Assembly (NCBI GenBank): GCA_938003835.1
Contig: CALKXJ010000001.1
Span: 1-64,000, forward strand
Source: an uncultured Bryobacteraceae bacterium
GTDB taxonomy: Bacteria; Acidobacteriota; Terriglobia; Bryobacterales; Bryobacteraceae
Reading direction: 5' to 3'
DNA length: 64,000 nucleotides
The notes beneath the pieces were generated by a model. The model searched no databases. It had not been told where the DNA came from and worked only from the letters and a program-made list of their open reading frames with translations. Position numbers and translations under genes: made by a program. Below are positions 7,734 to 23,144 of the stretch, piece after piece. The stretch's first letter is position 1; each line of letters opens with the position of its first letter.

Positions 7734-8501
7734 CTAAAAGGCAATGCCCAACAGCAGCTCGAACTGGTTGCGGCGCGAAAGCGTGGGAGGCGAGTTGAAG
7801 GTGTTGCCAAGCCAGCGCGTGTAGCGGATCTGGGGAACGACCTTCACCGGCGAGGAGCCGGCGAGCTGAAAGCCGCCGCCGAGCACGATGCCGGGCAGCG
7901 TCGTGTTTCTGGGCACGGCGGGCGCCTCGCTGATCGCGGAGGTCTTGTCCGGCAGCAGCACTTCCGAGAAGGTGCGGATGTGAGTGACGCGACGGATGGC
8001 GAAGCCGGCCTCGAGAAACGTGCGCGAGGGCCGCTCCGAGCGCGAGGCGTCGTAGAAACGCAGCACAACGGGGAAGTCCCAGTAGTCCGTGCGCGTGCGC
8101 TCGAACTTCCGGGTGACCACCGGATCGGTTTCCCCGAGGCTGGTCTCGAGATTCGACTTGTAGCCGGCCTTGCGATAAAGCAGATCGAGCGCAATCGAGA
8201 GTCGCTCGAGCAGGGCGAACTCGATCGAGCCGCCCGCGCCCAACTGGTTCGAAGTGGAGGTGGTGGCATTGGTGAGCTGGAAAACCGGCTCGGAGGTGGA
8301 GCTCGAAAGCGTCTCCGTATTCATCAGGTCGTTGAAGAGGATGCTGAGGCGCGCCCCGACGAGCAGCCGGTTGAAATAAGGCTTGGCGGGCGAATCCTGG
8401 GCCTGGGTGTCCGTCTGAGCCGCCGCCGGCGCCGCAAGCAGAGCGACGGCGAGGACGGCCGCCGTCGAGACGATCCGGAATTGAGCAGGGGAGTGTCTCA
8501 T
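7734..8501 (-). CDS. Outer-membrane beta-barrel protein (paralogue B)
   Basis: A signal peptide (VSTAAVLAVALLAAPAAAQ) precedes about 220 residues with alternating hydrophobic strands and a terminal phenylalanine (LLLGIAF), as in small OMP/PorT-like barrels. It is clearly related to the protein encoded at 11540-12301: both share ERTR-(T/A)-D-(Y/F)-WD followed by a VLRFYD/VRLYN strand, and an RYTRW motif before the last strand. The second of two adjacent ATGs (8501) is preferred because GAGGTGAT sits just before it; a TTG at 8528 lies inside the receptor gene. It follows the receptor by 14 bases, so it is co-transcribed with it. No specific function is recognised; a role as an accessory barrel or small-solute porin is a guess. 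Confidence 0.75.
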   Translation of the reverse strand: MRHSPAQFRIVSTAAVLAVALLAAPAAAQTDTQAQDSPAKPYFNRLLVGARLSILFNDLMNTETLSSSTSEPVFQLTNATTSTSNQLGAGGSIEFALLERLSIALDLLYRKAGYKSNLETSLGETDPVVTRKFERTRTDYWDFPVVLRFYDASRSERPSRTFLEAGFAIRRVTHIRTFSEVLLPDKTSAISEAPAVPRNTTLPGIVLGGGFQLAGSSPVKVVPQIRYTRWLGNTFNSPPTLSRRNQFELLLGIAF

Positions 8502-8515
8502 CATCACCTCAGCCG

Positions 8516-11512
8516 TCAAAATTCCCAACGGAACCCTACCTGGAGCGAGCGCGGCGCCGGCCCCAGCCAGGGTGCGTTCCAGGGGGCGGACAGCCCGAAC
8601 AGCGGGCTCGAAAGCAAAGCGGTGCCCTCGCGCGCCGGGTCGACGAAGTTGGCCCGGTTCAGCACATTGAAGGCTTGAGCGAAGACGTCCAGGCGCGCCC
8701 GCTCCCGGAAGGGGAAGCGGCGGCGAATCGCCAGGTCGGCCTGAAAAAGCTCGAAGCCGCGCAGCGCGTTGCGGGGCAGCGTGCCGTTGGCGTAATCGGT
8801 GGGCAAGGTAAAGGCGGCCGGGTTCAGCCGGCGCCCGCCTGGAATACCCGCCTCATCGAGCCACAGCGACTCGCCGCGCACGATGTTGGGCCGCACCAGC
8901 GCATAAAGCCGCTGCACGGTCACGCGCCGGGCGGGCATCGTGACCATGCCCGCGGCCTCGAACGGCAGGCCGCTGCGCGCCGTCAGGTGCCAGTCCGCGG
9001 CCCAGCCGCCGAAAAGCTGCCTGAGTCCGTTGATGCCGGGCGAGGGGAAAGCGAAAGAGCCCGCGAAGCTGAGCGTGTGGCGCACATCGTATTCCGAATC
9101 CTGGCGCGTATCCTCGAAGACGTAGTTCATGCCCCGGGGTGGCCGGCGGAATGCGCCGGCTTCAATGGCGTGACTGTAGGTGTAGCTGAGCTGGGCTTGC
9201 GCCCGGGCCGACAGCCGCCGGCGGAACTGGAGCTGGAGCGACTGGTAGTTGTGGGTGGGCTTGTTCGAAATCACTTCGATGACGTCGTAGTCGGCCGAGC
9301 CGTCGTCGCGCAATTCCGAATAGGAGCGCCGTGTCTCGAGCTTCAGCAGGTCCCGGGCCTTGGCCGCGGCGTAAGTCAGCACCAGAGACTGCGAGCGGCC
9401 AAAGTACCGCTCGAGCGAAGCGTTCCAGACCCACACGCGTGGGGCCCGCAGGTCGGATTCGGCGCCTGCCACCATCCCGTAAGGCCGCACCGCGGGCAGC
9501 ACCAGCGGCTGGAGCTGCTCGGCGGTGAGCGGGAAGGCCGCTCCGACGAAGTTCCGCTGGTTGACATACGGGGTGGCGCGGAAGGAGTTCAGTGCGAAGG
9601 CGTAGCTCGGATCGAACAGGATGCCTATGCCGAAGCGGAACATCGTCTCGGCGCCGGGCGTGGTGTCGAGCTGGTAGGCGACGCCGAAGCGCGGCCCGAT
9701 GTCACGCCAGCGCGTCCGGTAGAGCGGGTCGATCCGGCTGACTTCCGGGAAGTTGGCAAAACCTTTGAAGGCGATCGGCGGGGCGCCGCGGCGTACGTCC
9801 GGCGCCGGGTTCAGATCCCAGCGCAGGCCCCAGATCAGCGTGGTCCGGCTGGTGGCCCTCCAGGTGTCCTGCGCGTAGACGGAGAAATTGATGTGCAGGG
9901 GATAGACGGCCGGCTCGTTGCTCATGACGTTAGCGGCGGCCGCGGTGCCTGACAGCAGTCCCCCCGTGGCGGGGTTGAAACCATAAAAGGTGAACAGCGT
10001 CTGGTAAGGCTGAAAGTACTCGGTCGGCGCCAGACGCCGGTAGTCGACGCCGAAGCGCCACTGATGGGTGGCGCCGGCGTAGGAAAGCGTGTCGACGATG
10101 TGGAGCTGGCGTTGCCGCGTGCGCGTCCGCGCGTTCATCATGTAGCCGCCGGCGCCGAGCACCTTGAGCGTCAAGGCCCCGTCCCGGACGCCCGCCGGTA
10201 GCCAGAGGTCGCGCCGAAGAGGCGTCGCGCCGCCGAAAGAGTCCGCCGAGGAGAGCGTCTCGGAATCCCAGAGGGAATAGTTCACCCGGAAGTCGTGCGT
10301 GGCTCGCGGCGCCGGCGTCCAGCTCAGAGCCGCGGTGAAGGACTTTGAGCGGTGATCCCCGTTGGTGAGTACGTTGGGCGCCGCGGGAGCCCGGCTGGAC
10401 TCCGAGCGGGGTGCGTGCTGGTAGCGGGCGAACAGGGCGAGCGTGGAGCTCAGCGAGTGATCCAGGCGCACCGAGGCCGAGTCGAGTTCGCTTCGGTTGG
10501 AGTAGATCCCCGCGAATACCGCCGCCTGCGTGGGAACAGCAGCCCGGTTGGGCGTGGGAAAGGCCTCAAGAAAGGGACGGAGCTTGGCGGCGGCTGCCTG
10601 GCGCGCTTCGAGCGATGGGACGGCAGCGAAGGCCGTCTGCGGCGAATCCGCGCGCAGGGCTTCGTAAGCGGCGAAGAAGTAAGTCCGGTCTTTCAGCAGG
10701 GGACCGCCCGCGGCGGCGCCGACATTGCGATGTCGCAACTCGCCCCGCTCGAGCGCCAGGCTGTTGGCCAGCCAGTCGTTGGCCGCCCAGCCCCGGTTGC
10801 GAAACAGGCCGAAAAACGAGCCGTGGAACGCGTTCGCGCCCGAGCGCGTGGTGACGGCCACCTGGGCCCCCGCGGTGCGGCCGAACTCCGGAGCGGCGGC
10901 CGATGCCTGGACGTCGACCGCCTGCACCGCGTCGAAGGCAAGCCCGGCCAACTCACCGGCGGGTGTCTTTGCCCCGTCGACCGTGATGTAGTTCGCTGCC
11001 GGGGCCAGCCCGTTGGCGCTCGGCACGGGCCCTGAAGGCAACAGCCCGGGCGCAAGCAACAGCAGGGAAGAAATGCGGCGCGACTCCAGCGGCAGAAATT
11101 CGGCAAAGCCACGATCCAGGCCGGTCGAGGAGCCGGGGTCGAACGAAATACCGGAGGTCGCCTCCTCCACCAGATTGTCCGCCTGGCCCGGCGCCGCCGG
11201 CATTTCCAGAACGAAGGTGCGGCGGTCACGGCCGGCCAGGCGAATCGGCTCGACCTTCACCTTCCGGAACCCGTCCTTGCTGACCTCGAGCTCGTAGTCG
11301 CCTGCTGGAAGGGCGTCGAAGACGTACCGGCCCCGGGCGTTGGTCGTCGTCTGGCGCACCGCGCCGCGACCAAGGTCACGGAGCGAGACTTCGGCGCCTG
11401 AGATACCGCTTTCGCGGGAGTCGACCACCGCGCCCGCAATGGTCGCGGTGTCCTGCGCCCAGAGGGCGGAGCTCCAAAGGATCAGCCAGGGAACGGATCG
11501 GAAAAAAGACAT
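8516..11512 (-). CDS. TonB-dependent receptor with carboxypeptidase-regulatory N-domain (Oar-like)
   Basis: This 998-residue outer-membrane receptor starts with a signal peptide (LILWSSALWAQD), then a carboxypeptidase-regulatory domain at about 22-105 (TIAGAVVDSRESGISGAEVS), a plug region (YITVDGAKTPAGELAGL, GAQVAVTTRSGANAFHGS) and a long barrel ending WEF. GGGAG lies about 10 bases before the ATG. It has the same architecture as the receptor at 2642-5662, with a different plug and no adjacent sigma factor. The gene lies between two related barrel genes, with 27 bases upstream and 14 bases downstream, so the three form one operon. It is probably an oligosaccharide importer or a surface-binding protein; the ligand is unknown. 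Confidence 0.9.
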   Translation of the reverse strand: MSFFRSVPWLILWSSALWAQDTATIAGAVVDSRESGISGAEVSLRDLGRGAVRQTTTNARGRYVFDALPAGDYELEVSKDGFRKVKVEPIRLAGRDRRTFVLEMPAAPGQADNLVEEATSGISFDPGSSTGLDRGFAEFLPLESRRISSLLLLAPGLLPSGPVPSANGLAPAANYITVDGAKTPAGELAGLAFDAVQAVDVQASAAAPEFGRTAGAQVAVTTRSGANAFHGSFFGLFRNRGWAANDWLANSLALERGELRHRNVGAAAGGPLLKDRTYFFAAYEALRADSPQTAFAAVPSLEARQAAAAKLRPFLEAFPTPNRAAVPTQAAVFAGIYSNRSELDSASVRLDHSLSSTLALFARYQHAPRSESSRAPAAPNVLTNGDHRSKSFTAALSWTPAPRATHDFRVNYSLWDSETLSSADSFGGATPLRRDLWLPAGVRDGALTLKVLGAGGYMMNARTRTRQRQLHIVDTLSYAGATHQWRFGVDYRRLAPTEYFQPYQTLFTFYGFNPATGGLLSGTAAAANVMSNEPAVYPLHINFSVYAQDTWRATSRTTLIWGLRWDLNPAPDVRRGAPPIAFKGFANFPEVSRIDPLYRTRWRDIGPRFGVAYQLDTTPGAETMFRFGIGILFDPSYAFALNSFRATPYVNQRNFVGAAFPLTAEQLQPLVLPAVRPYGMVAGAESDLRAPRVWVWNASLERYFGRSQSLVLTYAAAKARDLLKLETRRSYSELRDDGSADYDVIEVISNKPTHNYQSLQLQFRRRLSARAQAQLSYTYSHAIEAGAFRRPPRGMNYVFEDTRQDSEYDVRHTLSFAGSFAFPSPGINGLRQLFGGWAADWHLTARSGLPFEAAGMVTMPARRVTVQRLYALVRPNIVRGESLWLDEAGIPGGRRLNPAAFTLPTDYANGTLPRNALRGFELFQADLAIRRRFPFRERARLDVFAQAFNVLNRANFVDPAREGTALLSSPLFGLSAPWNAPWLGPAPRSLQVGFRWEF

Positions 11513-11539
11513 GATCGGATTACTCCCGCCGCCATTGCC

Positions 11540-12301
11540 TCAGAAAGTCAGGCTGACCAGAACCTCGGCCTGCTGGATGTTCATGCGCCCCAGATTCGCG
11601 TCGAAGACGCGCTGGAACCACCGCGTGTAGCGTCCCTCGAGCTCGAGCTTGATGCCGATTTCGTCGCGAAGCTGGAGGCCGGCGGCAAAGACGGCGCCGG
11701 TGGCGGGGCTGTGCGCCGGCTTGATCGGGATGCTCGCCGTATCGCGCAGCCGGCGCTGGTTGACGAACTCCGTGTACGTCTTTATTCCGGTGACCGTCCG
11801 AAGGGAAGGACCAATGGCCACGAAGAAGCGCCGCGATTCCTCGGCCGCATCGACGTTGTACAGACGAACGAGGATGGGGATGTCCCAGAAGTCCGCTCGC
11901 GTGCGCTCGAACCTTTCGCCGAGGAAGTCGCCGGCCGTGCCGTCCTCTTTCTGGACGTTGCGAGTGATGCGTGCATCGTAGCCGGAGCGCTTATAAAGAA
12001 AATCCGCGTTCAGACCGAGCCTGCCCGAAAGCGCGAAATGCACCGAGGGCCCGATCGTGAAGCGCTTGGCGGCCGACTTGACGTTGTTGTTGACCGTCTC
12101 CGGAGGCGTCGTGCCCGTGGTGTTCACCCGAAACTCGGTGGTCGTCATGCCGTCCGTGGGCACCCCACCCAACCGGACTCCCAGCCAGAAGCGCCGGTAA
12201 AAGGGTGTGCGCTCGTCGGTTTGCGCAGCGGCGGCGCCGTAAAAGGAAAGCCCAAGCAGCAAGACTAACAGCGGGCGAATGCGATTGAGCCGGCCTGTCA
12301 T
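11540..12301 (-). CDS. Outer-membrane beta-barrel protein (paralogue A)
   Basis: The ATG at 12301 opens a good signal peptide (PLLVLLLGLSFYGAAAAQ); the frame also runs further upstream from 12397, but those residues do not resemble a secreted N-terminus. The mature part, about 230 residues, has barrel-like strands and a C-terminal LVSLTF. It is a paralogue of the 7734-8501 product, sharing FERTRADFWDIPILVRLYN and the GRYTRW motif. No clear ribosome-binding site precedes 12301. The gene sits 27 bases upstream of the receptor and probably belongs to the same transcript. Two copies flanking one receptor suggest a paired function or a duplication around a receptor gene. Function not recognised. 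Confidence 0.75.
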   Translation of the reverse strand: MTGRLNRIRPLLVLLLGLSFYGAAAAQTDERTPFYRRFWLGVRLGGVPTDGMTTTEFRVNTTGTTPPETVNNNVKSAAKRFTIGPSVHFALSGRLGLNADFLYKRSGYDARITRNVQKEDGTAGDFLGERFERTRADFWDIPILVRLYNVDAAEESRRFFVAIGPSLRTVTGIKTYTEFVNQRRLRDTASIPIKPAHSPATGAVFAAGLQLRDEIGIKLELEGRYTRWFQRVFDANLGRMNIQQAEVLVSLTF

Positions 12302-12441
12302 GGCAAATCGAGATCTGCTTGTATCGGACTGAAGAACAAGGAAGATCAGGCACCTGAAGCGAGCCTGGGAGCGCCCACGCTCGTGCGCCCTTTTCATTAT
12401 ACGAAGCCGCCGCCGCCGGCGGGTACACGGGGAGCGAACCT

Positions 12442-13449
12442 TTACGGGTGAAAGACGATCTCCCAGTGGGAATCGCCGCCCAGGAACAGGCGCGCCACGG
12501 CGCCGGCGAGCCGGTCCGTGCCGCCGGGCTCCAAGCCGATCACCTGCGGGTACCAGCGCGCCTCGCCGCGGTCGAGGATCTTTTCAGGAGGAGTCCAGCC
12601 GTGGGGGTTTCCGATATCCGGGTTGAAGGAGATGTAGACGCCCTCGACCGGCCAGCCGGGCTCGCAGCAGGCGCGGCTGAGCAGCATCACGTACCGGTTG
12701 ATGGCCGTGTTCCAGTGAAGCGAAGGTCCCCAAAAGGCGTCGGCATCGGGCCTGCTCCAGGGCACGCGGGCGGGCAGGATGGCGGTGACGCGTCCGCCTA
12801 GGCCCGGCTCTTCCCAGGCGCCTTCGAAGAACTTCCAGACCTTACCCACGGGATCGGCGCGGTCGGCGAAAGCCATCCGGGCGACGGCGATGCCCTGGCT
12901 GGCCTCCGGGCCGCCGTAGCTGCCGAAATAGAAGTAGAAATACTGCCGCTGCTCGTCCACGAGCACGGTGAAGTCGCCGTGGCCGCCCGCGAAGTAGCCG
13001 TTGGCCGCCTCGCAATCGGGTTCCTCGCCGGGCGCCAGGACGATGCCCAGGTCGCGGAACGACTCGCCGCCGTTGTCCGAGACGAGCGCCCCGATGACCG
13101 GCGTCGTCAGTTGTCCCTCACAGGCCGGCATCTCATGGTGGTACCAGGCGTAGAGCGTGCCGTCATCATCCGGCCAGACCGACTCGATCCACAGAGGCGT
13201 GTGCTCGTAGGTATCCAGCGCCACGGCGCGCGCCTTTAGCCGGCCCGCCAGCTCGTTTCCGCGGCTGAAGATGGGCAGTGCGGCAGACTGGATCACCGTG
13301 AAGGCGCCGTTCCACCAGAAGACCGGGCTGTTCGAGTCGGAGACGCCGGGCAGCACCAGAGGGGGCGCCGGTCTCAGCTCGACGCGCTGCGCGGCAGCAG
13401 GGACCAGGGCCGACAACACACAGAGTAGTGAGGTACGGCACGCCCACAC
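12442..13449 (-). CDS. Secreted protein of unknown function, tandem copy 2 (possible beta-propeller)
   Basis: The product has 335 residues with a signal peptide (LLCVLSALVPAAAQ) and a GTG start at 13449 preceded closely by AAAGG. Motifs spread along the protein (YEHTPLWIE, GTLYAWYHHE, GGHGDF, FWGPSLHWN, ACCEPGWPVEG) resemble the repeated strands of secreted five-bladed propeller or glycosidase-like proteins such as DUF4185-type. I cannot name a family with certainty. It is about two-thirds identical by eye to the product of the next gene upstream (13501-14514). Three cysteines, two of them adjacent (RACCEPGW), are kept in both. Both lie directly upstream of the barrel-receptor-barrel operon on the same strand, suggesting a surface or periplasmic partner of that receptor. 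Confidence 0.72.
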   Translation of the reverse strand: MWACRTSLLCVLSALVPAAAQRVELRPAPPLVLPGVSDSNSPVFWWNGAFTVIQSAALPIFSRGNELAGRLKARAVALDTYEHTPLWIESVWPDDDGTLYAWYHHEMPACEGQLTTPVIGALVSDNGGESFRDLGIVLAPGEEPDCEAANGYFAGGHGDFTVLVDEQRQYFYFYFGSYGGPEASQGIAVARMAFADRADPVGKVWKFFEGAWEEPGLGGRVTAILPARVPWSRPDADAFWGPSLHWNTAINRYVMLLSRACCEPGWPVEGVYISFNPDIGNPHGWTPPEKILDRGEARWYPQVIGLEPGGTDRLAGAVARLFLGGDSHWEIVFHP

Positions 13450-13500: not shown

Positions 13501-14514
13501 TTAGGGGTGAAATACGATCTCCCACCGACTCTCGCCGCCGACAAAAAGGCGCGCCACGCTGCCGGCGTGTTTGTCCGACATGCCCGGTTCCAGCCCCACC
13601 ACCTGCGGGTACCAGCCCGCCTCGCCGCGCTCGAGGAGTTTCTCCGGCTGGCTCCAGCCGTGGGGCGCCCCAAGGTCGTAGCTGAAAGAGACATAGATGC
13701 CCTCGGCCGGCCAGCCCGGCTCGCAGCAGGCGCGGTTCAGGAGCATCACGTAGCGGTTGATGGCCGAGTTCCAGTGCAGCGAGGGACCCCAGAAGGAATC
13801 GGCGTTGGGATGGCGCCAGGCGACATAGGCCGGCAGGATGGCGCTGAGCCGCCCGCCGATGCCCGGCTCGCGCCAGCCGCCCCGGAAGAATTTGTGAACG
13901 CGGCCCACGGGACTGGCGCGGTCGGCATAAGCCAGGCGCGCCACGGCAACTCCCTGGCTCGGCTCGGGCCCGCTGTAGTTGGTGAAGTAGAAATAGAAGT
14001 ATTGCCGATCGTGATCGGGCAGCACGGAAAAATCGCCGTGGCCGCCGCCGAAATAGCCGTTCTGCGCGCTGCAATCGGGCGCGTATCCGGAGTCGAGAAT
14101 GATGCCCAGATCGCGGAATGTCAGACCGCCATCGACGGAAATCAGCGCGCCGATGGCCGGCATCGACAAGCGGCCGCCGCAGATCGGCCTTTCGTGGTGA
14201 TACCAGGCGTAAAGCGTTCCATCGTCATCCATCCAGCTCGCCTCGATCCACATCGGTGTGTGCTCGTAGCTGTCGAGCGCCACCGCCCGCGCCTTGAGCG
14301 GGCCGAGCGGTCCGGGCCCGAAGCTGATGATCGGTAAGGCGACGGACTGAATCACGGCGAAGGAGCCATTCCACCAATGCACGGGGCTGTTCGAGTCGGT
14401 TGCTCCGGGAAAAGAGATCGGTTCGGCGGGCCGCAGCTCGGCACGCTGGCCCCACAGGAGAACCGAGAGGCCGGCGAATGCGACGAGTCGGAGCAGATGG
14501 TCGAGAGCAAACAC
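13501..14514 (-). CDS. Secreted protein of unknown function, tandem copy 1 (possible beta-propeller)
   Basis: The product has 337 residues, starting with GTG at 14514 after a GGGGGAG ribosome-binding site. The signal peptide is hydrophobic to about LLWGQ. It is collinear with the 12442-13449 product over its whole length, with matching motifs (DSNSPVHWWNG, YEHTPMWIE, GGHGDF, FWGPSLHWNSAINRYVMLL, WEIVFHP at the end). The two copies are separated by 51 bases, which points to tandem duplication followed by divergence. No catalytic residues can be assigned from sequence alone. Placement before a TonB receptor operon suggests glycan binding or hydrolysis outside the cytoplasm. Confidence 0.72.
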   Translation of the reverse strand: MFALDHLLRLVAFAGLSVLLWGQRAELRPAEPISFPGATDSNSPVHWWNGSFAVIQSVALPIISFGPGPLGPLKARAVALDSYEHTPMWIEASWMDDDGTLYAWYHHERPICGGRLSMPAIGALISVDGGLTFRDLGIILDSGYAPDCSAQNGYFGGGHGDFSVLPDHDRQYFYFYFTNYSGPEPSQGVAVARLAYADRASPVGRVHKFFRGGWREPGIGGRLSAILPAYVAWRHPNADSFWGPSLHWNSAINRYVMLLNRACCEPGWPAEGIYVSFSYDLGAPHGWSQPEKLLERGEAGWYPQVVGLEPGMSDKHAGSVARLFVGGESRWEIVFHP

Positions 14515-18422: not shown

Positions 18423-19541
18423 ATGAGAGAAGTCAGTGTCGGTCTGGTTGGGTCCGGTTTCGTGAGCGCCATTCACGCGGCGGCCCTGAGGATGGTGCCG
18501 GGGGCGCGGCTGGCGGCCGTGTGCTCTCCGACTGAAGAGCACGTGAGGCGCTTCGCCCAGGAGCACGCCATCCCGCGCTGGTTCACCGACTACCGGCGCC
18601 TGCTCGAGCTCGGTGAGGTCGAAGTGATCGTCATCGGGGCGCCGAACGATCTGCACGCCGAGATCGCCGTAGCCGCCGCCGAAGCGGGCAAGCACGTGAT
18701 CTGCGAGAAGCCGCTGTGCCTGAATCTGGCCGAGGCCGACCGCATGATCGCGGCCTGCCGCCGGGCCGGCGTCAAGCTGATGTACGCCGAGGAGCTTTGC
18801 TTTGCCCCGAAGTACGTACGGCTCAAGCAACTGGTGGAGGAAGGCGCCGTCGGCGAGCTGACGCTCATCAAGCAGAGCGAGAAGCATGACGGGCCGCACG
18901 CGAGCTGGTTCTGGGACGTCGAGCGCTCCGGCGGCGGCGTGGCCATGGACATGGGCTGTCATGCGCTGGAGTTCTTCCGGTGGATGACCGGCAAGCGCCG
19001 CGCGGAGTGGGTCTGGGCGGACTTGAGCACTCAGGTGCACCGGGAGCGGACGCGGGGCGACGACAACGCCTTGCTCGTGGTTCGCTTCGAGGGCGGCATC
19101 ACCGCGCTCGCCGAGGAGAGCTGGACGAAGAAGGGCGGCATGGACGACCGCGCCGAAGTCTACGGCTCCCTGGGCGTCGCCTACGCCGATCTGCTGCGGG
19201 GCAACTCGATCTTGACTTACAGCGAGACCGGCTACGGCTACGCGGTAGAGAAGGCCTCCACCACGCGCGGCTGGTCCTTTGCCGTCTACGAGGAGATCTG
19301 GAACTATGGCTTCCCGCAGGAGATGGCGCACTTCGTCGAGTGCGTGCGCGAGGACAAAGAGCCGCTTGAAACCGGTGAAGACGGCCGCGCCGTCCTCGAG
19401 ATGATCTTCGCCGCCTATGAATCGGCGCGGACGGGCTGCCGGGTGAAGCTGCCGTTCCCAACCCAAGCGCGCAAGCCCGTGGAGCTGTGGCATCCGCAGG
19501 GTGTGCGGCAGGAGCCTCGGGCGGGCTCTCAGAGTCCGTAG
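18423..19541 (+). CDS. Gfo/Idh/MocA-family oxidoreductase (cytoplasmic)
   Basis: The 372-residue protein has no signal peptide. It starts with a Rossmann motif (VSVGLVGSGFVSAIHA), carries the family EKPLCLN motif with the catalytic lysine, and in the second domain GGGVAMDMGCHALEFFRWM with the conserved histidine. Enzymes of this family oxidise sugars, inositols or sugar acids with NAD(P). A TATGAT hexamer at 18403-18408 lies 14 bases before the ATG and may be its -10 box. Its 3' end overlaps the end of the convergent mtaB-like gene by 13 bases. Substrate cannot be predicted. Confidence 0.88.
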   Translation: MREVSVGLVGSGFVSAIHAAALRMVPGARLAAVCSPTEEHVRRFAQEHAIPRWFTDYRRLLELGEVEVIVIGAPNDLHAEIAVAAAEAGKHVICEKPLCLNLAEADRMIAACRRAGVKLMYAEELCFAPKYVRLKQLVEEGAVGELTLIKQSEKHDGPHASWFWDVERSGGGVAMDMGCHALEFFRWMTGKRRAEWVWADLSTQVHRERTRGDDNALLVVRFEGGITALAEESWTKKGGMDDRAEVYGSLGVAYADLLRGNSILTYSETGYGYAVEKASTTRGWSFAVYEEIWNYGFPQEMAHFVECVREDKEPLETGEDGRAVLEMIFAAYESARTGCRVKLPFPTQARKPVELWHPQGVRQEPRAGSQSP

Positions 19542-20902
19542 CTGGCGCGATCGTAGAACGGACCGTAGTCGGCCTCGGCGTCGGCGACGAGTTGCTCCGC
19601 CGTCGCGGGCAGCCCGTCGAGCTCCCGCTCGAGCCGCACCAGCCATTGCTGTTCTTTCGCCGCCAGGGTCAGGCGGCCGTCCCGCAGGCCTCCCCGGATG
19701 AGCGCGAGCGCCGTCCGAGCTGCGGCGATCGTTCGCCGATAGGGGTCGTCTTCCGCGGCGATGGCGCGGGCAATCTCCCAGGTGGCCTCGGGCGAAAGCA
19801 CCACCGCCTGCGGGCTCAACCACTCGTCGGAAGCCGTCAGCCAGTCGCGCAGCGCTCGCGCGCCGCCGTTGCGGGCGGCGGCGTTCATCAGCCGGCAGTC
19901 ATAGATCAACAGCTCGGTGTAAACTTCCGGGGCGGATCCGGCGAGCAGGCGCACGTTCTGAACCGACTCGTTGCTCCAGAGGTCACACATCGCTGCGGCG
20001 ATATTGCCGAGGGGGCTAAAATGGGCGCAACTCGCCGACTTGCCCTCCATGGAGATGGGGCAGCCGGTGATGGCCTTGATCACCGGGCCCTCGTAGGCGC
20101 AGTCCTTTGACGGTCCCACGGCCCCGCATTCGAAGGCCACGAGGCTTCGGGCCGCCCCCATGGCGCGCACGACGGCCGCGAGCACCTCAGGAAGCATGCG
20201 CTGATGCGCCAACTGCATGGCCGTGTTGGCGAAGCCGCAGGCCGAGTCGCCGCCGGGTACGGCGCTCCGCGCACGGCACCGGTCGACGAGCCGCGACCAC
20301 AACCAGGCCATGTCGCGCGCCGCCAGCACCCCGAGGCCGAGCAGGATGCCTTTCAGATCTCCGAACATTAGGGCCTGATCATGCACCTCTTTGCCGCCGA
20401 CGGATTCGATCGAGAGGATCTCGGCGCCGGCCTCGAGACACGCCTGGATGGACTCGAACAATCTCTCCGCCGCCGCGCCGTCGCGCAGCCGCGGCGGCCG
20501 GCCCTGGTCCCGGATATCGACCGGGGTAACGCGCAGCGCGGTGCGCAGGCCCGCGGTCTCGTAGACTCTTTCGAGCTCCTCGCGCAGCAGAGCGGTGATC
20601 TCGGCGCCCCAGGCCGGCCGCTCGGTCATCGGCGGCAGAAGCTCGAACTCGACGACCAGGCCCGGCGCCTGCAGGGCGACGGCGCGGCGGAGCACCGCCT
20701 GGATCATCTCCTCGTAGTGCCGCCGCACTTCGCGCCAGCTCGATTCCGAGATCGCAATCGGCGGCAGGGTAAAGTTCACTTCCGGAAAGACCTCGCCGCC
20801 GCCGACGAGGAGGCCACGACCGCAGGAGAGCGGCCTCCTAGCCCGTCCGAAGACCAGATCATCGGGACCGTCGACAGAAAGCGCTCGGGCGGGTTCCGGC
20901 AT
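19529..20902 (-). CDS. mtaB: Methanol:corrinoid methyltransferase (MtaB family)
   Basis: The 457-residue protein matches the zinc-dependent MtaB family, which moves the methyl group of methanol onto a corrinoid protein. Family blocks are in order: VDIRDQGRPPRLR, SIESVGGKEVHD (about 164-175), GGDSACGFANTAMQLA (about 218-233), GAVGPSKDCAYEGP (about 260-273), SMEGKSASCAHFSPLGNI and LWSNESVQNVRLL. The residues corresponding to the zinc ligands of the methanogen enzyme are present at E166, C222 and C268. ATG at 20902 has AGGAG at good spacing. The partner corrinoid protein (MtaC) and MtaA are not in the window, so the methyl acceptor is unknown. It could act on methanol or another O-methyl compound released from pectin or lignin. 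Confidence 0.85.
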   Translation of the reverse strand: MPEPARALSVDGPDDLVFGRARRPLSCGRGLLVGGGEVFPEVNFTLPPIAISESSWREVRRHYEEMIQAVLRRAVALQAPGLVVEFELLPPMTERPAWGAEITALLREELERVYETAGLRTALRVTPVDIRDQGRPPRLRDGAAAERLFESIQACLEAGAEILSIESVGGKEVHDQALMFGDLKGILLGLGVLAARDMAWLWSRLVDRCRARSAVPGGDSACGFANTAMQLAHQRMLPEVLAAVVRAMGAARSLVAFECGAVGPSKDCAYEGPVIKAITGCPISMEGKSASCAHFSPLGNIAAAMCDLWSNESVQNVRLLAGSAPEVYTELLIYDCRLMNAAARNGGARALRDWLTASDEWLSPQAVVLSPEATWEIARAIAAEDDPYRRTIAAARTALALIRGGLRDGRLTLAAKEQQWLVRLERELDGLPATAEQLVADAEADYGPFYDRASYGL

Positions 20903-21001
20903 AAGATCTCCTGATCGGTTAACCAGTATATCCGAGACCTGACTTCCCCGACTCCGGCATCCTGAATGCCGCGCGCCGACTGTGTTAACATCCAGTGTTT
21001 G

Positions 21002-21021
21002 AGCCGGCCAGCGGGCCGGCT
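21002..21021 (+). promoter_or_regulatory. Hairpin in the 5' leader of the EF-G2 gene
   Basis: AGCCGGCC, a four-base AGCG loop and GGCCGGCT form a perfect eight-base-pair stem. It lies 26 bases before the GTG start at 21048, just upstream of the AGGAG ribosome-binding site at 21035-21039. It could modulate translation or mark the end of a leader; it has no following T-run, so it is not a typical terminator. Confidence 0.5.
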
Positions 21022-21047
21022 ACCGCCCTTCTCCAGGAGCAACTCAC

Positions 21048-23144
21048 GTGAAGGTCTATCTTGGCAAGGACATCCGGAATGTCGCCGTCACCGGGCACGG
21101 CAACTCGGGCAAGACGAGCTTAGTCGCCGGATGCCTCTATGCCGCCGGCGCCACCTCGCGGCTGACACGCGTCGACGAGGGCAACACCCTCACCGATTTC
21201 GACGACGAGGAGATTCAGCGCAAGATCACGATTTCGACGGCCATCGCCCTGGTGGAGTGGCGAAAACACAAGATCAATCTGCTCGACACCCCCGGCTTCA
21301 ACATCTTTATTAACGACACCAAGGCGTCGATGGTGGCGGCCGACGCCACGCTGGTGCTGGTCGACGGCGTGGCGGGCGTCGAGGTGCAGACGGAGAAGGT
21401 GTGGCAGTTCGCCGAGGAGTTCGGCTTGCCGCGGGTGCTGGTGATTAACCGGCTGGACCGGGAGCTATCGAGCTTCGAGCGGGCGCTCGAGAGCATCCAT
21501 GAGGTCTTCGGCCGCGCCGCCGTGCCCGTGCAGTTGCCGCTCGGCGCCGAGCGTGACTTTCGGGGCGTCATCGACCTGATCGCCATGAAGGCCTACAGCT
21601 ACGCGCCGGACGGCAACGGCAAAGGAACCGAGGAGGAGATCCCGGCCCAGATGGCGGAAGCGGCGGCACAGGCGCACGAGGCGCTGGTGGAGATGGTGGC
21701 CGAGGGCAACGACGAGCTCATGGAGGAGTTCTTCGACAAAGGGACGCTCTCGCCGGAGCGGATGATCGAAGGGCTGCGCCAGGCCGTCCGGGAGCGCCGG
21801 CTCTACCCGGTGCTGTGCGCTTCGGCGCTGCGCAACATCGGCACGGACCGGATTCTGGACTTCATCGTGGACAATTTGCCGGCGCCGACCGAGATGGGGC
21901 CCAAGCGCGGCGTCTCGGGCGGGCAGCCCGTGGAGCGGCGCGTCGCGGACGACGAGCCGGCCTCGGCCTTTGTTTTCAAGACCATCGCCGACCCGTTCGC
22001 CGGACGGATCTCCTACTTCAAGGTCTATTCGGGCATCGTCAAGAACGACGCCAATCTCACCAACTCGCGCTCGGGGGGGACCGAGCGGCTCTCGCACATC
22101 GGTTGCTTGCAGGGCAAGGAGATCTTACCGGTGATCGAGTTGCACGCCGGCGATATCGGGGCGGTGGCCAAGCTCAAGGACACGCTGACCGGCGACACGC
22201 TCTATGACAAGTCGGCGCCGATCGAGTATCCGCCGGTGAAGCTGCCCGAGCCGTCCATCGCCTTTGCGGTGAAGGCCAAGTCGCGCCAGGACGAAGACCG
22301 CATGGGCACGGCCATCCAGCGGATTCTCGAGGAGGACCAGTCGCTGCGGTTCTACCGGGATCCCCAGACCAAGGAGTTTCTGCTGGCGGGCAGCGGCCAG
22401 CAGCAGGTGGAGGTGGCCGTCAGCAAGCTGAACAAGCGCTACGGGGTGAACGTCGAGCTGCATGCGCCGAAGATCCCCTACCGGGAGACGATCCGCGGCA
22501 CGGCCGACGTGCACGGGCGGCACAAGAAGCAGACGGGCGGTCACGGGCAGTTCGGCGATTGCAAGATTCGCGTCTCGCCGCTGCCGCGCGGCGAGAAGTT
22601 CGCCTTCGAGAACCAGATCTTCGGCGGAGCGATCCCCAAGCAGTTCATTCCGGCCGTCGAAAAAGGGATTCTCGAGGCGGCCGAGCAGGGCTATCTGGCC
22701 GGCTATCCAGTGGTGGATTTCAAGGTCGAGCTCTACGACGGCGCCTACCATGAGGTGGACTCCAACGAGCTTTCCTTCAAGCTCGCCGGGCGCAAGGCCT
22801 TCCGGCTGGCGATGGAGCAGGCCAAGCCGGCGCTGCTTGAGCCGATCATGAACGTCGAGATCCACGCACCGGTCGAATACGCGGGCGATCTGATGGGGGA
22901 TTTGAACGGCCGGCGTGGCCGCATCACCGGCATGGAGGTCAAGGGCAACACGCAGATCATCCGGGCGCAGGTGCCCATGGCGGAGATGCTGAACTATCAG
23001 AACGACCTGACCTCGATGACGCAGGGCCGGGCCTCCTTCAGCATGGAGTTCGACCATTACGACTTCGTGCCGCAGCAGATCGCTGAAAAGATCATCGCCG
23101 AGGCGCGCGCCGCCAAGGCCGGCATGGCCGAAGAGGAGGAGTGA
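21048..23144 (+). CDS. fusA2: Elongation factor G-like GTPase (EF-G2/FusA2 type)
   Basis: At 698 residues this has the full five-domain EF-G layout: GTPase domain (P-loop GHGNSGKTS at 16-24, DTPGF at 80-84, NRLD at 134-137), domain II, and domains III-V with PYRETIRG and a C-terminal LMGDLNGRRGRITGME. It differs from the main EF-G: the histidine after DTPG is F84, NKxD is NRLD and the P-loop lacks HVDAGKT. These changes match the EF-G2 paralogue group, whose members are non-essential or have altered GTP hydrolysis. Start is GTG at 21048 with AGGAG eight bases upstream. The gene stands alone, outside a str operon, which also fits a paralogue. The real fusA should lie elsewhere. Confidence 0.85.
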   Translation: MKVYLGKDIRNVAVTGHGNSGKTSLVAGCLYAAGATSRLTRVDEGNTLTDFDDEEIQRKITISTAIALVEWRKHKINLLDTPGFNIFINDTKASMVAADATLVLVDGVAGVEVQTEKVWQFAEEFGLPRVLVINRLDRELSSFERALESIHEVFGRAAVPVQLPLGAERDFRGVIDLIAMKAYSYAPDGNGKGTEEEIPAQMAEAAAQAHEALVEMVAEGNDELMEEFFDKGTLSPERMIEGLRQAVRERRLYPVLCASALRNIGTDRILDFIVDNLPAPTEMGPKRGVSGGQPVERRVADDEPASAFVFKTIADPFAGRISYFKVYSGIVKNDANLTNSRSGGTERLSHIGCLQGKEILPVIELHAGDIGAVAKLKDTLTGDTLYDKSAPIEYPPVKLPEPSIAFAVKAKSRQDEDRMGTAIQRILEEDQSLRFYRDPQTKEFLLAGSGQQQVEVAVSKLNKRYGVNVELHAPKIPYRETIRGTADVHGRHKKQTGGHGQFGDCKIRVSPLPRGEKFAFENQIFGGAIPKQFIPAVEKGILEAAEQGYLAGYPVVDFKVELYDGAYHEVDSNELSFKLAGRKAFRLAMEQAKPALLEPIMNVEIHAPVEYAGDLMGDLNGRRGRITGMEVKGNTQIIRAQVPMAEMLNYQNDLTSMTQGRASFSMEFDHYDFVPQQIAEKIIAEARAAKAGMAEEEE

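Follow-up and report, generated by a model that had tools for sequence, protein, structure and literature searches.

In the marine roseobacter Phaeobacter inhibens, a four-gene set and a separate pterin protein have been genetically shown to make methionine (Price 2018, PMC5764234), and in Ruegeria pomeroyi the set MtgBCDE has been genetically shown to serve both methionine synthesis and glycine betaine demethylation (Mausz 2025, PMC12478193). These roseobacter hubs share one principle: a donor-specific MtgB feeds a shared corrinoid protein (PMC5764234, PMC12478193). The gene mtaB, coding for methanol:corrinoid protein methyltransferase, was found in 1.6% of floodplain metagenome-assembled genomes (MAGs) (PMC11264602), and a peatland study reports that mtaB of Acidobacteriota is expressed in bog and fen (Ellenbogen 2023, PMC10805028). 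We analyzed an mtaB gene from an uncultured Bryobacteraceae bacterium, carried by a 64-kb stretch of contig CALKXJ010000001.1 (hereafter the window), and compared it with these systems. Its product is a true MtaB, and a gene cluster resembling the roseobacter methionine synthase lies elsewhere in the same genome. The reading that we favor, and to which we give roughly even chances, is that a functional MtaB loads the methyl group of methanol onto the corrinoid protein of this cluster (the hub), from which it passes to homocysteine to yield methionine, the whole forming a split, methanol-fed methionine synthase.

The mtaB gene product and its zinc site

The minus-strand open reading frame (ORF) of mtaB runs from an ATG at 20902 to a stop at 19529 and encodes 457 aa. 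Its G+C content at the three codon positions (0.72/0.51/0.85) is typical of coding sequence in the window, and an AGGAG ribosome-binding site stands directly 5' of the ATG. The protein is assigned to the MtaB family because it matches the PF12176 profile over its full length (522.6 bits for a cut-off of 25, model positions 8-448 of 460), matches and superimposes onto MtaB of Methanosarcina barkeri (PDB 2i2x_A, E = 6e-84), and retains the zinc ligands and conserved columns. Its AlphaFold model (mean pLDDT 90) adopts the TIM-barrel MtaB fold, as testified by a TM-score of 0.93 and an r.m.s. deviation of 2.6 Å relative to 2i2x_A. The zinc ligands E166, C222, and C268, which in the alignment take the places of M. 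barkeri E164, C220, and C269, do not vary among 20 bacterial MtaB homologs from many phyla; the M. barkeri protein is identical at 73 of the 88 columns that are invariant among these 20. The original prediction of an end-to-end MtaB with all three ligands in place is thus borne out, and methanol, one of the substrates that it had proposed, is plausible.

The gene is present in a single copy in the whole genome. In a tree of 89 MtaBs, built by a quick method without bootstrap and with a very long M. barkeri branch, the window protein falls into a clade of 37 members, nearly all from Acidobacteriota (SH-aLRT 92%). A degenerate MtaB homolog was observed in relative G169 (L075:9514-10764): it has 416 aa, is about 30% identical in part of its sequence, and has lost Cys268, while its genome keeps the hub. 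It is possibly a pseudo-enzyme or a protein with a new function.

The corrinoid hub and its linkage to mtaB in relatives

The host genome (5.0 Mb in 38 contigs, completeness 100%, contamination 1.2%; Bryobacteraceae/Solibacteraceae, Acidobacteriota) encodes four PF02310 proteins: one stand-alone corrinoid protein, a full-length MetH of 1191 aa, and a further two in the range of 457-481 aa. The sole stand-alone corrinoid protein (211 aa, at about C2:189718-190353) carries both B12 domains and a D-x-H-x-x-G motif in the form GDLHDIG. It is encoded on contig C2, which also holds rpsB, tsf, pyrH, and frr (translations inspected), in a minus-strand cluster (locus L015) where it is followed by a PF02574 homocysteine methyltransferase (HMT) of 286 aa, a DUF1638 protein, the sole RACo/RamA-like protein of the genome (502 aa), and a sigma-54 activator. 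The HMT retains the three cysteines expected of its zinc site, Cys201, Cys266, and Cys267. An MtaA-like URO-D protein of 342 aa with HIC...C (H-x-C...C) zinc ligands is encoded on C8 (C8:349008), and contig C4 encodes a long URO-D protein; each is 59% identical to its counterpart in locus L069 of relative G084. The genes for MtaB, the corrinoid hub, and the MtaA-like protein are therefore spread over three contigs. The original prediction had stated that the 64 kb contain no partner gene, and indeed tblastn searches of the window with five types of query (corrinoid protein, homocysteine methyltransferase, DUF1638, reactivase, and URO-D) gave no credible match. Its implication that mtaB is an orphan does not survive the genome-wide search that it had proposed, which recovered the corrinoid protein and the RamA-like activase on C2 and the MtaA-like protein on C8; the lack of any corrinoid partner, named there as evidence against the idea, is thus not what the genome displays.

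The whole genome gave no match to MttB/MtgB (PF06253). It also has no stand-alone pterin-binding MtgD, the only PF00809 matches being a FolP-sized protein of 283 aa and the 1191-aa MetH, and its single MTHFR is fused to an HMT domain. Since the genome encodes MtaB and neither MtgB nor MtgD, we infer, by analogy with the roseobacters, that MtaB feeds the corrinoid protein and that the HMT passes the methyl group to homocysteine. In such a scheme, MtaB would take the methyl group from methanol and transfer it to the C2 corrinoid protein, occupying the slot held by the glycine betaine enzyme MtgB in marine roseobacters; the adjacent zinc HMT-domain protein would then form methionine, the RamA-like ferredoxin/ATPase protein would re-reduce corrinoid that had become oxidized, with the DUF1638 protein as its putative helper, and the MtaA-like protein of C8 may offer a second outlet, to folate or to a thiol.

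The genes that are scattered in the host are joined in several relatives. In locus L070 (relative G112) a single strand carries, in order, the genes for the corrinoid protein, MtaB, HMT, DUF1638, the MtaA-like protein, and RACo; the order is MtaB, HMT, DUF1638, MtaA-like, RACo, corrinoid, long URO-D in L069, and MtaA-like, long URO-D, corrinoid, MtaB, DUF1638, RACo, HMT in L093. HMT, MtaB, and DUF1638 are directly consecutive in L102, and in L091 a corrinoid-MtaB pair lies opposite RACo, MtaA-like, DUF1638, HMT, and long URO-D genes. HMT genes are found close to mtaB in Bacteroidota and Armatimonadota as well. In the 44 loci that extend 4 kb or more to each side of mtaB, a corrinoid gene occurs within 4 kb in 24 and an HMT gene in five; no pterin protein was detected near MtaB across 106 loci (a positive control was run). 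The C2 corrinoid protein groups in one clade (91%) with corrinoid proteins encoded beside mtaB or in the hub, and the lone corrinoid gene that stands beside mtaB, near the hub, in L091 falls within its subclade.

MtaB and the hub reactivase also occur together across genomes. In the family, RACo is present in 23 of the 26 genomes with MtaB vs 70 of the 211 without (p = 6e-8, or 4e-7 when two partial or degenerate MtaBs are dropped from the 26), and in a class-level sample in 8/8 vs 53/291 (p = 2e-6); none of these p-values takes common descent into account, and the family sample overlaps with that of the class.

The genome encodes 14 proteins of the URO-D superfamily, seven of which display an H-x-C zinc-type motif. 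Long URO-D paralogs, which adjoin corrinoid proteins in several relatives, may represent additional enzymes that donate methyl groups.

The DUF1638 protein (L015:10117-10857) and its 15 homologs, 16 hub-cluster copies in all, share the invariant residues C8, H36, C69, H89, D90, and C91, a set that, from sequence, resembles a metal or cluster site. Its model is a two-lobed α/β structure (mean pLDDT 85). Its fold matches, to LacI/periplasmic-binding-type and Asp/Glu-racemase-type chains, are weak (best Z 8.1) and stay at the level of a common arrangement. In G084, HMT and DUF1638 read as one ORF of 547 aa (L069:7883-9526), a possible fusion.

Possible routes of the methyl group

Several observations weigh against a methanol-fed methionine synthase. 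The mtaB of the window is unlinked to the hub, and MtaB is solitary in most sampled genomes of the family. RACo was undetected in three of the 26 MtaB genomes, each of which is 84-88% complete. Conversely, MtaB is missing from many hub genomes, so that the hub must have further donors, perhaps URO-D proteins. The C2 corrinoid protein scores best on MtgC/MtbC-type models and not on MtaC (216 bits on MtgC vs 122-140 bits on the MtaC models, whose cut-offs are 420 and 450). The window MtaB reaches 431 bits vs a cut-off of 720 on the NCBIfam equivalog NF040651 (MtaB_Meth); this model was apparently built on methanogen proteins, hence the failed cut-off excludes the curated equivalog and not the wider MtaB family. 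Finally, the genome carries a full-length MetH, which makes the hub unnecessary for ordinary methionine synthesis. By the same token, the presence of a MetH-type enzyme makes it the economical reading that the hub draws on another methyl donor.

In a classical MtaABC methylotrophy, MtaB, the corrinoid protein, and the C8 MtaA-like protein would load tetrahydrofolate, and the methyl group would be oxidized or assimilated through folate C1 metabolism. We regard this as unlikely, although it has points in its favor: the MtaA-like protein carries the H-x-C...C ligands and has an orthologue inside the hub of relatives, acetogen MtaA has been described as transferring the methyl group to folate (PMC10907483, PMC9847067), and peat Acidobacteriota express their mtaB (PMC10805028). 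However, it has been argued that His-Cys-Cys MtaA-like proteins act as methyltransferases of thiols (S/Se; PMC10418091), the C8 protein remains under the MtaA/CmuA subfamily cut-off of TIGR01463 (161 vs 235 bits), and the HMT gene of the cluster would be left unexplained. Because the genome lacks a stand-alone pterin-binding methyltransferase of the MtgD type, folate-based oxidation of the methyl group is not evident. The original prediction had MtaB feeding a one-carbon route; full C1 oxidation is unsupported, and the cluster points to homocysteine as the acceptor.

Slightly less probable still, the hub could serve mainly URO-D methyltransferases, with MtaB loading the shared corrinoid protein from another substrate in place of methanol, for example a methoxylated compound. 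The seven H-x-C URO-D proteins and the long paralogs beside corrinoid genes would fit such a role, as would the score below the methanogen equivalog cut-off and two conserved bacterial positions that lie near the zinc ligands in sequence and differ from M. barkeri (A221/D219 and F224/Q222). On the other hand, the Glu-Cys-Cys zinc set is retained, most bacteria-invariant columns are the same in M. barkeri, and, to our knowledge, no member of PF12176 has a demonstrated substrate class beyond small alcohols such as methanol. An ethanol side activity is mentioned in one report (PMC12450230). It is improbable that MtaB, as a relic or a newly acquired gene, lacks a working partner in the strain. Its monocistronic position away from the hub, its rather long terminal branch (0.58 vs a median of 0.32), and the degenerate homolog of G169 would be in line with such a history, but the frame is intact with coding-type composition, every catalytic residue is conserved, and MtaB is kept in about 24/237 family genomes, mostly alongside the hub reactivase.

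We return to the methanol-fed methionine synthase, whose pairing of MtaB with a split-methionine-synthase hub looks new: a literature search that left subscription journals and supplements outside its scope found no description of MtaB with an HMT/DUF1638/RamA hub. Somewhat more tentatively, we propose that in soil Acidobacteriota, and in several further phyla, MtaB, one shared corrinoid protein, and HMT convert the methyl group of plant-derived methanol into that of methionine without involving folate. If this holds true, soil bacteria not deemed methylotrophs could take biosynthetic methyl groups straight from methanol, and a single corrinoid protein would be the exchange point among methanol, other methyl donors, and methionine. 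Moreover, non-methanogen mtaB in metagenomes could mean something besides methylotrophic growth, which would matter in wetlands, where mtaB serves as a marker of methane-related methylotrophy.

Surroundings of mtaB and comparison with known systems

Table 1 Position of mtaB and its immediate neighbors in the window
Feature	Position	Strand	Basis or remark
mtaB, methanol:corrinoid protein methyltransferase, 457 aa	19529..20902	minus	ORF, profile, structure, zinc-ligand alignment
Intergenic region, 145 bp, mtaB / EF-G-like gene divergent	20903..21047	.	AGGAG 5' of mtaB
Gfo/Idh/MocA oxidoreductase, convergent with mtaB, ends overlapping by 13 bp	18423..19541	+	Neighbor without conserved link
EF-G-like translation factor, divergent from mtaB	21048..23144	+	Neighbor without functional link

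The mtaB gene appears to be transcribed alone; no sigma-54 type site was noticed by eye in the intergenic region that separates it from the EF-G-like gene. Genes for an aldo/keto reductase and a lytic transglycosylase are also found around it. The Gfo/Idh/MocA, aldo/keto reductase, and EF-G genes are not conserved beside MtaB in the loci of relatives, hence the sugar-oxidoreductase context is uninformative and the suggested origin of the methyl groups from pectin or lignin draws no support from the neighborhood. Elsewhere in the window, two adjacent related secreted-type proteins without a Pfam match (12442-13449 and 13501-14514), alike in their N-terminal parts, are tandem duplicates, and at 7734-12397 a large outer-membrane barrel protein of 998 aa (OMP_b-brl_4 and CarboxypepD_reg) and two OMP_b-brl_2 barrel proteins that flank it are encoded on the same strand.

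With the MtaBC(A) systems of Methanosarcina and acetogens, the host shares the MtaB fold, the zinc ligands, and most conserved columns, and its genome also holds a stand-alone corrinoid protein, a RamA-like activase, and a URO-D protein resembling MtaA; it differs in its MtgC/MtbC-like corrinoid protein, in the dispersal of the genes over three contigs, and in the clustering with HMT and DUF1638. The mtaB of peat Acidobacteriota (Ellenbogen 2023) comes from the same phylum, and several near homologs of the window MtaB stem from MAGs named palsa, bog, or fen; in the available part of that report the HMT/DUF1638 hub is not described, and in the host mtaB is unlinked to the hub. That study makes outdated the original view that such a route is not usually ascribed to these bacteria, mtaB expression in peatland Acidobacteriota having been reported in 2023. 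Type 1 mlp clusters (PMC10418091) likewise group a His-Cys-Cys MtaA-like URO-D protein, a corrinoid protein, and a reductive activase, with methionine as the proposed product, but they hold several Mlps with a proposed role in methyl-selenium/sulfur salvage, whereas the hub described here has MtaB, HMT, and DUF1638. The split methionine synthase of Phaeobacter and Ruegeria has its HMT (PF02574, MtgE), corrinoid protein (MtgC), DUF1638, and RamA-like DUF4445 counterparts all adjacent on C2; unlike the roseobacters, the host lacks MtgD and MtgB/MttB, carries MtaB instead, and has a full-length MetH too.
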